This document shows positions 26,899 through 31,819 of a stretch of 64,000 bases of DNA, piece by piece; positions within the stretch are counted from its first letter, which is position 1; each line of letters begins with the position of its first letter. The position numbers and the translations under genes are program-made. Below the pieces are notes generated by a model, which saw only the letters and a program-made list of their open reading frames with translations, had not been told where the DNA came from and did not search any database. Origin of the DNA: Methylophilus sp. TWE2 (GTDB lineage: Bacteria; Pseudomonadota; Gammaproteobacteria; Burkholderiales; Methylophilaceae); assembly GCF_001183865.1 (NCBI RefSeq), contig NZ_CP012020.1, forward strand, positions 2,227,839 to 2,291,838, in the 5' to 3' direction.

Positions 26899-27990
26899 TC
26901 AGGGTTCAAGTTTGGCCTGCACACGAATATCCTGGCCAAACTGGCGAATATCAAGAATATGCAGGGGATGTGCGTCCGTCATATGAGCCATCTCTGGCAG
27001 GGCAAACATGCCGCGCGCAGTACTGCCCATCAGTTTGGGGGCGTAATATAACAATAGTTCATCCACCAGGCCAACTTGCAGGAAGGCACCATTCAGGGTT
27101 GCACCCGCTTCTATCAGCACCTCATTGCAGGGTAGCGCAGTGAGCGCCTGCATTAATGCGGCGATATCCACCTGTCCTTGTGCATTGGGAATATGCAGCG
27201 TGCGTATCCCCATGACCTGCAACACCTCCAACTTGGACGCGTCGCCTTGTGCGTAAGCAATCATGGCCTGGCCATGCTCTAACACTTTTGCATCAACAGG
27301 GATACGCAGCTGGCTATCTACAATCACTCGCAAAGGTTGTCTGGTTGTCGGGACATCCCTGACCGTCAGTGCGGAGTTATCCTGAAGAATACTCCCTATG
27401 CCCGTCACGATGACACAACTCTGTGCACGCCAGTGATGTACATCCTTACGCGCATCTGCTGAAGTGATCCACTGGCTGACACCATTCAATAACGCTGTGC
27501 GGCCATCCAGGCTGGCAGCCACCTTGAGCCTAACATATGGCCGCTGCTGGGTCATGCGAAGTATAAAACCCGGGTTGAGTGCCCTCGCCTGTGCTTCGCA
27601 TACCCCCACCGTCACCGCGATGTTTTGTGCCCGCAAGCGTTCAATGCCCTTGCCCGAAACCAGCGGGTTAGGATCTTGCATCGCCACGACAACGCGGTTG
27701 ACGCCTGCTTTCACCAAGGCATCGGCACAGGGTGGCGTGCGTCCAAAATGACTGCACGGCTCCAGCGTGACATAGGCTGTCGCGTCACACGCCAAGTCAC
27801 CTGCCGCTTGCAGGGCATGCACCTCCGCGTGCGGTTCACCCGCCTTGAGGTGGGCACCTTCGCCTAACACCTGGCCATGTTTGACAATAACGCAGCCAAC
27901 CCGCGGGTTAGGCGTCGTGGTATACAGCCCTCGCGCTGCCAGACGCAGCGCACGCGTCATCCATTCAATATCTTGTGTAGTTTGAGACAT
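26899..27990 (-). CDS. ribD: Bifunctional riboflavin biosynthesis deaminase/reductase
   Basis: 363 aa. The N-terminal cytidine-deaminase-like domain binds Zn through HAEVHAL and PCSHFGRTPPCADAL and deaminates the pyrimidine intermediate. The C-terminal reductase domain (RPYVRLKVAASLDGRTALLNG, WITSADARKDVHHWRA, PLRVIVDSQLRIP, VLIEAGATLNGAFL) reduces the ribosyl side chain. Length and order are normal. It is separated from the usual ribE/ribBA/ribH genes, at least in this window, and pairs with tatD. Confidence 0.95.
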   Translation of the reverse strand: MSQTTQDIEWMTRALRLAARGLYTTTPNPRVGCVIVKHGQVLGEGAHLKAGEPHAEVHALQAAGDLACDATAYVTLEPCSHFGRTPPCADALVKAGVNRVVVAMQDPNPLVSGKGIERLRAQNIAVTVGVCEAQARALNPGFILRMTQQRPYVRLKVAASLDGRTALLNGVSQWITSADARKDVHHWRAQSCVIVTGIGSILQDNSALTVRDVPTTRQPLRVIVDSQLRIPVDAKVLEHGQAMIAYAQGDASKLEVLQVMGIRTLHIPNAQGQVDIAALMQALTALPCNEVLIEAGATLNGAFLQVGLVDELLLYYAPKLMGSTARGMFALPEMAHMTDAHPLHILDIRQFGQDIRVQAKLEP

Positions 27991-28153: not shown

Positions 28154-30298
28154 ATGATTTATATTGCCGATCCCAACCCTTGGCTGGCCCTGTACGCACA
28201 ACCGCTGCATACACGCACTGCCCCCCCTACCGCAGACTTGCAGTCGTTTTTATCGACTTATGGCCGCTCGCAGCAGCAGACATGCACTCTCACCCGAATA
28301 AGCCCTGAAATAGGATCAGATTTAACAGAAGCGTTGGCAACTCTGCCAGAAAGCCTCCTGAATACCCTCAACAAATCTGTACTGGGGATTTTCTTTGCTG
28401 ATGGCCTGGGGGCTTCCGGCCTGACCGATATGGTCGCGCTGGGTGATGGCAGCAACAATATCGGATTTATCATCGTGCTGGATACTCAAGCATTTGCGCA
28501 CGCTTCGGCAAATGCCTGGGCCAGCTGGAAAGAAAATTCGGCGTTTACGGCGGATGAAGAGGTGCAGATTCAGGTGTGCATTGCTAATGAAGACAGCGAC
28601 CATCGCGTGCAAGCCTTGCGCTTCCTGTTGCTGCACGAATTTGGCCATGTCCTCGCTACCATGACAGACATTTGCCCCAAAGAGTGGAGCTTTCCCCTGC
28701 AAAAACTGGCCGGTCACTTCAGCAAACATAGCTGGCAAACGAGTGGTACTAAAGCGATTCGACCAGAACAGAACTTCCCCCACCGTGAAAAAATCTCGTT
28801 TTACCGCCAGCCAGCACTGCAGGCCAGCCAGGCACTAGACCTTTACCGTGATCTGGCAAGAACCGCTTTCCCCACCTTATATGCCAGCATGGATGTACAG
28901 GAAGATTTCGCCGAGTGCTTTGCCACTTACGTGCATACACAATTGCTGGGCCAACCCTATCGCGTGCAGGTAAAGGTCGGCGATGCTCTGGTATTTACCA
29001 GCGATGACTTCTGGGCATCGTCGCGTGCCAGTGAAAAGCGGCGATACTTTCATCACTTATTGCAGTCACTGGAACACAATAATGCCAGGCATACCTTCCA
29101 GGGTCTTGCGCCTTTCCTGCGCATGAACCTTAATGGCGCTGACTTGCGGTCCCATGCACAATCGTTGCTGGTACAAGCTAATCAAGACCAGGAGAATGCC
29201 ATCTTATGGATGAACCTGGCGACAGTATTTTTATGCCTCAAAATGCGAGACATGGGATTAGCCATCCAAGAGCAGGCGTTAGCGTTACAGCGTCTGTACG
29301 TTCGCCCGGCAAACTGCAGGCGACCAAAGTTCCGCCTGCTGATGATTATGACTGCAGGGGATCTGTCAGAAAACACCCCGATTGATTGCCTACTGGAAAA
29401 CAGCCCGGTAGAGTTGCTTTATTACTATGCGACGGTAGCGCAACCTTTACCATCCCCATTGCCAGAGCATGATGCTGTGATGGTAGGCTTGTCTGACAGC
29501 GAGGCTAACCGGGCGCTATTGTTAGCCGTACAGGCCAGCCTGTCAGGTCACGCAAAGCCGGTCATCAACCCACCGCACCTGCTGCCCAACGTTAACCGTG
29601 ATCAATTAAGCGCGCTCCTGCAAGACATCCCTGGACTGGAAATGCCACGCACACATAAACTGTCGCGTAGCCAGGTAGTGACTCGTTTAAGCCTGCAAAA
29701 CCAGGGTAAACAAACCGCCCCTGAGGCAATGCCTGGTTTTCCATTGATTATCCGACCCGTTGGCTCCCAAGCAGGTAACAATCTGGCCAGAATCACCTCT
29801 GCGAATGAACTAGCGGACTATTTAAAAGAGGTGACAAGCCCCGATTTCTTTGTGTCCCGTTTTGTGGATTACAGCAGCCACGATGGACAATTTCGCAAAT
29901 ACAGAATTGCCATGCTGCGCGGCGAACCCTTTATTTGCCATATGGCGATTTCGAGTGACTGGATGGTGCACTACGTGAACGCTGGCATGTATGAGTCCGC
30001 CGAGAAACGCGAAGAAGAAGGCCTGTTCATGCAAAACTTCAACCGCTTTGCGACTCGCCATCAGGCTGCGTTGGAGGCCATTTATGCGCGTCTACAACTT
30101 GATTATCTCTGCATTGATTGCGCCGAAACCTCCGATGGCAAACTGCTGGTGTTTGAGATAGACCATATCATGGCCGTGCACGCCATGGACTCGGCCAGCC
30201 TGTTCCCGTTTAAGGCGGGGCAGATCGCCAAACTACAGCACGCTTTCGAGCAGTATTTATATACATTACAGACGCAACCATTACTGGAGAGCGCATGA
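28154..30298 (+). CDS. HExxH metallopeptidase-like / TPR-like / ATP-grasp fusion protein, unknown function
   Basis: 714 aa. Residues about 1-290 contain RFLLLHEFGHVLATM near residue 160, a zincin-type HExxH, followed later by DVQEDFAECFATYV, where a Glu could be the third ligand. The middle has helical, TPR-like repeats, then a domain with LMIMTAGDLSENTPIDCLLE and LPEHDAVMVGLSDSEANRALL. From about residue 528 a RimK-like ATP-grasp domain appears: GFPLIIRPVGSQAGNNLARI, FFVSRFVDYSSHDGQFRKYRI, and LLVFEIDHIMAVHAMD. There is no signal peptide. Translation is coupled to serC by ATGA. The TPR/ATP-grasp part resembles ligases of unknown substrate; the peptidase fusion is unusual to me. Confidence 0.7.
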   Translation: MIYIADPNPWLALYAQPLHTRTAPPTADLQSFLSTYGRSQQQTCTLTRISPEIGSDLTEALATLPESLLNTLNKSVLGIFFADGLGASGLTDMVALGDGSNNIGFIIVLDTQAFAHASANAWASWKENSAFTADEEVQIQVCIANEDSDHRVQALRFLLLHEFGHVLATMTDICPKEWSFPLQKLAGHFSKHSWQTSGTKAIRPEQNFPHREKISFYRQPALQASQALDLYRDLARTAFPTLYASMDVQEDFAECFATYVHTQLLGQPYRVQVKVGDALVFTSDDFWASSRASEKRRYFHHLLQSLEHNNARHTFQGLAPFLRMNLNGADLRSHAQSLLVQANQDQENAILWMNLATVFLCLKMRDMGLAIQEQALALQRLYVRPANCRRPKFRLLMIMTAGDLSENTPIDCLLENSPVELLYYYATVAQPLPSPLPEHDAVMVGLSDSEANRALLLAVQASLSGHAKPVINPPHLLPNVNRDQLSALLQDIPGLEMPRTHKLSRSQVVTRLSLQNQGKQTAPEAMPGFPLIIRPVGSQAGNNLARITSANELADYLKEVTSPDFFVSRFVDYSSHDGQFRKYRIAMLRGEPFICHMAISSDWMVHYVNAGMYESAEKREEEGLFMQNFNRFATRHQAALEAIYARLQLDYLCIDCAETSDGKLLVFEIDHIMAVHAMDSASLFPFKAGQIAKLQHAFEQYLYTLQTQPLLESA

Positions 30299-31437
30299 TG
30301 AAACTGAATGCCAATCAACTGAATTTTTCTGGTGGTCCAGGTGCATTGCCAGAAAGTGTATTGCAGCAACTCCAGACAGCCATGCTCTGTGTACCAGAAG
30401 TTGGCTTGTCTATTCTTGGCATCAGCCATCGTTCGCAATGGTTTGCACAAGTAGTGCAAGAGCTTGAGGATAATATCCGCCAGTTGATGGGCCTGCCTGA
30501 CTCTACGCGCGTGCTCATGATGCAAGGTGGCGCCACGCAACAGTTCTCCATGTTGCCCATGAACCTGTTACGCGATGGGCAATCTGCCGACTATATCCAC
30601 AGCGGCTACTGGAGTGGCAAAGCCATTCACGAAGCTGAAAAGTCCGGCAAACTTCAACTGGCCTGGAGCGGCAAGGCCGACCAGTTTAGCCGTTTGCCGA
30701 GTGATGCGGAGCTGCAACTGTCAAAAGACGCTGCCTATTTTCACTACATTTCAAACGAAACCGTAGAAGGCCTGCAGTTTCACCGTGTGCCTGGCCGGGA
30801 CGATGTCCCGCGTATCTGTGACATGTCCTCCGACCTGCTGTCTGCACCGGGGGAATTCAACCGCTATGCAATGATCTATGCCCATGCCCAGAAAAACATA
30901 GGCCCCGCAGGCGTGACACTTGTCATTTTGCGTGATGATTTTATGCAGACCCTGCCCAAGGATTTACCTGGCTTTATCAACTACCATGCTCAGGCGGATG
31001 CGCACTCTATTTACAACACGCCGCCTGTGTTTGCCATTTACAGTGTATTGCTGGTGACGCGCTGGCTACTTAATGACATCGGCGGCTTGCACAATATTGC
31101 CAAACATAACGAGCTGAAAGCAGCTTGTTTGTACCAGGTGCTGGATGACCATGCCGATTTCTACCGCGGCCGTGCCGCTATCGCTGACCGCTCCAACATG
31201 AATGTGGTATTTAATTTACCTAACGCAGAGATAGAACAGGCATTTTTACTGGCTGCCCAACAGGCAGGCTTTTCAGGCCTGAATGGTCACCGCAGCATCG
31301 GCGGCATACGAGCCTCGATTTATAATGGGTTGGAAATTGCTGCCGCTGATCAACTGGCAGACTTTATGCAGACGTTCTATAAACGCTATAAAACCTCTAC
31401 GCCGCAAACCGCAGGATTTTCCCCGGCCTACGCATAA
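30295..31437 (+). CDS. serC: Phosphoserine aminotransferase family (SerC)
   Basis: PLP-dependent transaminase of 380 aa. NFSGGPGALPESVLQQLQ, GISHRSQWF, LMMQGGATQQFSMLPMNLL, HYISNETVEGLQF, and the PLP-lysine segment IYAHAQKNIGPAGVTLVIL match SerC, as does GLNGHRSIGGIRASIYNG near the end. It would convert 3-phosphohydroxypyruvate and glutamate to phosphoserine. The start overlaps the stop of the ATP-grasp gene by four bases. It may be the housekeeping SerC or a specialised paralogue; the conserved motifs favour real transaminase activity, and the context leaves the substrate open. Confidence 0.85.
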   Translation: MMKLNANQLNFSGGPGALPESVLQQLQTAMLCVPEVGLSILGISHRSQWFAQVVQELEDNIRQLMGLPDSTRVLMMQGGATQQFSMLPMNLLRDGQSADYIHSGYWSGKAIHEAEKSGKLQLAWSGKADQFSRLPSDAELQLSKDAAYFHYISNETVEGLQFHRVPGRDDVPRICDMSSDLLSAPGEFNRYAMIYAHAQKNIGPAGVTLVILRDDFMQTLPKDLPGFINYHAQADAHSIYNTPPVFAIYSVLLVTRWLLNDIGGLHNIAKHNELKAACLYQVLDDHADFYRGRAAIADRSNMNVVFNLPNAEIEQAFLLAAQQAGFSGLNGHRSIGGIRASIYNGLEIAAADQLADFMQTFYKRYKTSTPQTAGFSPAYA

Positions 31438-31441
31438 GGCA

Positions 31442-31819
31442 TTAGTGCGAGGAAATCTGGCTATGGGTTAAGCGCCCATCCGCGTCAAAATAAATACGCA
31501 ACGCATGGTAAACATGCATACATTTGCCGAGGTCATATTCCAGTGCGTTGGCATCTTCCAGACTGGGACGGCCTAGCAGGGCCATGACAGCCTCTTTTTT
31601 GGCGCCGCGGATCAAGATGTGATTTTTGAGATCATAAGCCATGTCACCCCGGCGGCAATCTTTTTGTACACTACTTGAAAGTTCCATCCAGCGTGTCTGG
31701 TCAAATTTCTCACTGCCAAAGACCGCTTCGTCCTTGAATGCCCACCAGGTAAAAAAGACGATGGTGAGGATCACCGTGAATACCGCCAGTACAATTGCAG
31801 ACACCTTGATCAGTTTCAT
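31442..31819 (-). CDS. Membrane-anchored small protein, BamE/SmpA-like fold
   Basis: 125 aa. One N-terminal membrane segment (VSAIVLAVFTVILTIVFFTWWAF) precedes a periplasmic part with a pattern like the BamE/SmpA or YxeA-type small domain: LKNHILIRGAKKEAVMALLGRPSLED, LEYDLGK, ALRIYFDADGRLTHSQI. The phrase 'x-x-x-V-x-x-L-L-G-x-P' followed by a Tyr/Leu strand is the usual sign of that fold. The precise family is uncertain. It follows the nrdR gene, 20 bases away on the same strand. Confidence 0.6.
   Translation of the reverse strand: MKLIKVSAIVLAVFTVILTIVFFTWWAFKDEAVFGSEKFDQTRWMELSSSVQKDCRRGDMAYDLKNHILIRGAKKEAVMALLGRPSLEDANALEYDLGKCMHVYHALRIYFDADGRLTHSQISSH

Follow-up and report, generated by a model that had tools for sequence, protein, structure and literature searches.

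The window analysed here, a 64,000-nucleotide stretch of the genome of Methylophilus sp. TWE2, encodes an ATP-grasp fusion protein whose stop codon overlaps, within the letters ATGA, the start codon of a gene for a phosphoserine-type transaminase that we call SerC2 (Table 1). Both reading frames and their overlap, described in an earlier note made from the letters of the window, were confirmed, as was its reading that a single protein joins an LHEFGH motif, a middle segment resembling tetratricopeptide repeats (TPR) and a C-terminal RimK-like ATP-grasp domain. The two genes are inherited together as a unit, the core of which is a TPR-like/RimK-fold ligase of about 405 residues together with SerC2. 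We consider the chances evenly balanced that this pair is a self-contained two-enzyme biosynthetic module yielding a small phosphoserine-containing conjugate.

The linkage of the two genes was followed by scanning 84,980 genomes, one per species; the query was an alignment that combined the fusion protein with stand-alone relatives. At least 592 stretches matched, and at least 581 encode a relative of the ligase, a figure that is no tally by species and includes ligases without SerC2; the best 80 loci were kept for neighbourhood analysis. SerC2, 57–96% identical to that of the window, lies directly downstream on the same strand in 75 of the 80, at a spacing of −14 to +44 nucleotides (median −4, overlapping in 42) as measured from SerC start codons picked by script. 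Two of the exceptions, L016 and L018, end near the end of a contig. In the reverse direction, SerC2 was detected at E ≤ 1e-108, a limit that omits distant SerC proteins such as that of genome G217, in 10 of 250 genomes of the order, and all ten copies adjoin an ATP-grasp match. Protein distances of ligase and SerC2 are correlated over 71 pairs (r 0.886), and the highest value among 1000 permutations was 0.30. The conserved, coupled two-gene unit that the earlier note had proposed is thus seen from both sides, and an upstream neighbour of serC2 that varies at random among relatives, the alternative it had named, is ruled out by the 75 of 80 loci and the ten of ten. Rahnella, Pantoea and Sodalis, which are not known to be methylotrophic, carry the pair as well. 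Two of the sampled entries (G348 and L014) may be one species, and locus L017, labelled Armatimonadetes and placed among Betaproteobacteria, may be mis-binned. When greedily called open reading frames (ORFs) of at least 70 residues were clustered across the 80 loci, no other family was found near more than 14 of them, and the family near 14, which runs antisense to the pair, seems to be an artefact. Several Gallionellaceae-type loci have a U32 peptidase gene upstream of the pair. A search of phages gave no match.

A second serC elsewhere in the genome had been suggested as a check, and one was found between gyrA and pheA. This separate housekeeping copy makes the gene in the window a paralogue and rules out that it is the only one. 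Since serC2 is a paralogue and its neighbour is not random, the genomic grounds on which the earlier note would have abandoned the idea fall away. The two SerC proteins of this genome are 43% identical, and that of the window scores just above the cut-off of the NCBIfam equivalog NF009112 (565.6 bits vs 563). A tree of 106 rows separates 88 SerC2 from 18 housekeeping sequences with support of 100/100, from a bootstrap that had not fully settled and with housekeeping rows drawn from the order of the window only, one sequence being entered twice. K200, H45, R46, H332, R333 and R339 are present in all 88 SerC2 rows; after the E. coli enzyme, we take K200 to be the lysine that binds pyridoxal phosphate (PLP) and the others to be substrate-binding residues. 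SerC2 thus shares the active-site residues of the housekeeping enzyme and differs from it in its separate clade, its ligase linkage and its own invariant positions, among them H197, V245 and Q161, which are lacking in all, or all but one, of the 18 housekeeping rows; D180 and Y105 are likewise typical of SerC2. Judged by these residues, SerC2 probably works as a transaminase on a phosphorylated substrate and is subject to a constraint of its own. Housekeeping SerC is also present in seven of eight pair-bearing genomes checked, the eighth (G091) being 85% complete, and paired and housekeeping copies stand together in G348 and G271.

The other half of the pair is, in its predicted model, a ligase with the RimK-type ATP-grasp fold. 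R534, K582, R584, D655 and E668 are invariant in an alignment of 140 homologues, and position 670 is aspartate in most, with asparagine second commonest. D655, E668 and D670 presumably correspond to the Mg/ATP residues (Asp, Glu, Asn/Asp) of RimK-type ligases, and the conserved acidic residues (D655 and E668 in 140 of 140) fall at the expected metal-site positions, as judged by residue conservation and fold rather than by atomic geometry. R534 occupies the position expected for the lobe lysine of RimK. The segment that precedes the domain is conserved in stand-alone ligases and comprises about two TPR-like hairpins in the model; the window protein gives no match to the Pfam TPR family, and a distant relative, L108, does match.

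From these features we infer the following scheme. SerC2 would transfer an amino group from glutamate to a phosphorylated 2-oxo acid, the likeliest candidate being 3-phosphohydroxypyruvate; the phosphorylated amino acid so formed would most likely be O-phospho-L-serine. The ATP-grasp enzyme, co-translated with SerC2, would activate a carboxylate as an acyl phosphate and couple it to the amino acid made by SerC2, which may be channelled between the two enzymes, so that the resulting amide would be a small phosphoserine-containing conjugate. In some lineages the N-terminal HExxH domain would be an add-on that may trim or modify this product. The substrate, the channelling and the acceptor in this scheme are all inferred, and peptide making and modification of a protein end, both raised in the earlier note, are both possible.

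Several observations weigh against the scheme. The ligase scores 17 bits with the RimK family model, for which the cut-off is 143.4, and has arginine where RimK has lysine. L066, L071 and L074 lack SerC2 with some room downstream, namely 10 kb, about 0.9 kb and about 1.3 kb, respectively. The genome of L066 (G767, which seems to be the G271 assembly) has SerC2 upstream of another, distant ATP-grasp gene at a gap of about 32 nucleotides, and the genome of L074 yielded no SerC of any kind, so that the gap at L074 says little. Distant ligases of the same order (38–45% identity) are mostly without SerC2; 53 of the 250 genomes of the order match the fusion protein, most of them through such ligases or through the N-terminal domain alone. 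Across the 80 loci, neither a transporter nor a regulator nor a third enzyme recurs beside most pairs. The residues invariant only in SerC2 suggest that its substrate may differ from that of the housekeeping enzyme. In G217, which carries a distant pair, no second SerC was found at E ≤ 1e-20, and the paired SerC there may therefore simply serve serine synthesis.

The same enzymes could act on a protein, with the TPR-like segment holding a protein or peptide while the ligase attaches phosphoserine, or else glutamate in a supply that SerC2 tunes, to an end or side chain, much as RimK acts on S6 and LysX on LysW. In VIA the ligase matches best to RimK, LysX and ArgX, which are protein ligases, the TPR-like segment persists in stand-alone proteins, and distant TPR/ATP-grasp relatives lie within a flagellar gene cluster (L101). 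Even so, no conserved gene for a carrier or target was found beside the pair among the ORFs of at least 70 residues called in the 80 loci, the modelled segment has only two TPR-like hairpins or so, and the fold does not separate small-molecule from protein substrates, D-Ala-D-Ala ligase ranking first in Foldseek. We regard this reading as unlikely, at somewhat better than one chance in five. The VIA matches also include inositol phosphate kinases, which share the ATP-grasp fold, and together with the universal arginine at position 534, where a lysine is expected, they would accommodate a kinase-like or other non-ligase activity to which SerC2 is linked only for serine supply; this we hold to be improbable.

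The residues that set SerC2 apart from housekeeping SerC could alternatively reflect another phosphorylated or phosphonylated oxo acid, such as phosphonopyruvate, from which a phosphonoalanine-type or vitamin B6-antagonist peptide would be made. The genome of the window does encode a phosphoenolpyruvate (PEP) mutase (410.5 bits), and so do two other Methylophilus among 11 pair-bearing genomes; the remaining eight have none above the cut-off, and the pepM of the window's genome has, as judged by eye, its own phosphonopyruvate decarboxylase-like and class V transaminase-like genes. These observations lower phosphonopyruvate as a general substrate and leave the reading doubtful, though less so than a non-ligase activity. 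A further proposal concerns the fused domain alone, which might be an iron/oxoglutarate oxygenase-like enzyme that hydroxylates the product rather than a peptidase; we consider this very improbable. Phosphoserine amides made by a ligase and its dedicated transaminase remain the reading that we prefer.

The HExxH domain was treated as a core part in the earlier note, and here the genomes speak otherwise. It is present in 12 of 86 distinct SerC-linked proteins and absent from 64, a tally in which protein lengths start from the leftmost start codon, so that the class of proteins carrying a mere stub may be inflated; in at least one Methylophilus the middle of the domain has been cut out. These absences and the deletion rule it out as the core of the module. 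Within 29 aligned rows H161, E162 and H165 are invariant and E254, the likely third metal ligand, is conserved to at least 90% and lies in the DFAEC motif; HExxH is lost in two fusion relatives, P0021 and P0022. The domain resembles M34/MtfA-like and Peptidase_Mx zincins and differs from them in being fused to an ATP-grasp ligase and in scoring below the Pfam gathering cut-offs (16.9 of 25.6 bits and 16.8 of 27 bits for the Peptidase_Mx/M34-like families). It also exists as stand-alone proteins of about 316 residues. Two such relatives (L097:5264-6319 and L099:6203-7303) begin with an apparent signal peptide, and the family may thus act outside the cytoplasm too.

Beyond the SerC2-linked proteins, ligases mostly 34–45% identical to that of the window lack SerC2, and many are beside or fused to a PLP decarboxylase (PF00282), an arrangement that fits a ligase supplied with amine by a PLP enzyme. 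Many of the decarboxylase-linked ligases are accompanied by an unfamiliar protein of about 480 residues (L104, L105, L109, L155 and others) that matches no Pfam, NCBIfam or PDB profile and, from its TGSK motif, looks like a PLP enzyme. Among 164 ligase places, duplicates included, SerC is nearby in 108, the decarboxylase and/or the 480-residue protein in 31, neither in 25 and both in none. In a ligase tree of 140 rows, obtained by a quick search with several long branches and with support only from the Shimodaira–Hasegawa-like approximate likelihood ratio test (SH-aLRT), an 87-row clade (SH-aLRT 100) comprises 82 SerC-linked ligases and the five exceptions L016, L018, L066, L071 and L074. The SerC label changes 9 times on this tree and the decarboxylase label 8 times, so that decarboxylase-linked ligases are not one clade. 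SerC partnerships outside the main clade occur at L108, L154 and L168 and, in reversed gene order, in G271. In a Methylotenera metagenome-assembled genome a second ligase, 40% identical (L019:3168-4256), is convergent to a ligase–SerC2 pair, and L019_1 was counted as SerC-linked solely through convergence to a normal pair. On a Rhizobium plasmid a ligase, a protein of about 500 residues and a decarboxylase are consecutive. A pair of distant TPR/ATP-grasp genes, encoding 832 and 543 residues, stands at L101:4052-9352 (G034) just before FlhB-/FlhA-family and SRP54-type GTPase genes; a role in flagellar protein modification is possible. Taken broadly, these ligases might belong to widespread undescribed modules that each pair an ATP-grasp ligase with a PLP enzyme of its own as supplier, the SerC2 branch making phosphoserine amides or protein-end phosphoserine tags, the decarboxylase branches making amine conjugates, and a zincin-like domain being fused for product processing in Methylophilus and a few other lineages; we hold this wider proposal tentatively, at somewhat less than even chances.

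Among known systems, the phosphonoalamide pathway is similar in logic. There, phosphonoalanine formed by PnaA is built into tripeptides by two ATP-grasp enzymes, PnaC and PnaB, so that with PepM, PnaA, PnaB and PnaC a dedicated PLP transaminase supplies a phosphorus-containing amino acid for ATP-grasp ligation to amino acids (PMC11867202). PnaA belongs to the aspartate aminotransferase superfamily, whereas SerC2 is of the SerC family, and the pathway requires PepM and two ligases, whereas the present pair has one (PMC11867202). The PEP mutase gene of the window's genome, over the TIGR02320 cut-off, lies outside the window (G000:C1:1861958-1862809, L201) beside flagellin-region genes. By eye, its neighbours are phosphonopyruvate decarboxylase-, class V transaminase- and nucleotidyltransferase-like; phosphonate decoration of flagella or of a surface sugar is possible. 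The methylofuran ligases MyfA and MyfB of methylotrophs are likewise of the ATP-grasp kind and assemble a small molecule through amide linkage; they belong to another pathway and gene cluster, and no link to the ligase–SerC2 pair was found in the accessible part of that source (PMC8141765). From the amide ligases RimK, LysX and ArgX the window ligase differs by its low RimK score, arginine in place of the usual lysine, the TPR-like extension and the SerC2 partner.

No description of the pair was found in the full-text literature, as judged by titles and the starts of abstracts, with subscription journals mostly outside the search; amidoligase reviews could already mention such neighbourhoods. 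The kinds of component are known, and what seems new is their combination and spread. If the proposed module is real, a compact route from a central metabolite to a phosphorylated amide exists in many Beta- and Gammaproteobacteria. Phosphoserine conjugates are rare, and one made in this way could serve as a signal, metal ligand, antimetabolite or protein tag. The SerC2 gene is labelled plain serC in the one annotated record examined; such labelling conceals the module and could lead models of serine synthesis astray.

The genome of the window (3,079,044 bases in a single contig, 99.99% complete) has Methylophilus methylotrophus as its closest named relative (protein identity 96%). Because the locus is flanked by a divergent ribD on the left and, on the right, by a convergent small gene with a weak resemblance to BamE (14.1 bits, under the cut-off), any operon in it is limited to these two genes. 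An Rfam search of the window found no RNA elements. Promoter-like sites in the window number 5 against a shuffle mean of 4.0 and terminator-like sites 8 against 4.0; these counts were not used as evidence.

Table 1. Features of the ligase–SerC2 locus, in window coordinates.
Feature	Position	Strand
ATP-grasp fusion protein, 714 residues (zincin-like N-terminal, TPR-like middle, RimK-fold ATP-grasp)	28154..30298	+
Zincin-like N-terminal domain, residues 1-305; optional fusion	28154..29068	+
HEFGH motif, residues 161-165	28634..28648	+
DFAEC motif, residues 251-255	28904..28918	+
TPR-like helical segment, residues ~311-391	29084..29326	+
RimK/LysX-fold ATP-grasp domain, residues ~393-708	29330..30277	+
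ATGA stop/start overlap, fusion reading frame into SerC2	30295..30298	+
SerC2, paralogous phosphoserine-type transaminase, 380 residues	30295..31437	+
ribD, divergent; left module boundary	26899..27990	-
Small convergent gene, weakly BamE-like; right module boundary	31442..31819	-

Within the genus Methylophilus the ligase gene is present in 11 of 22 genomes. Five of the 11 genomes that lack the pair were examined at this locus, and in each of them the BamE-like gene and nrdR come right after ribD. The pair is gained or lost as a block, with a clean empty site between ribD and the BamE-like gene. On a plasmid of Paraburkholderia sp. FT54, a ligase–serC pair (L154:5950-12722) lies near a site-specific integrase and two tyrosine-type recombinases.
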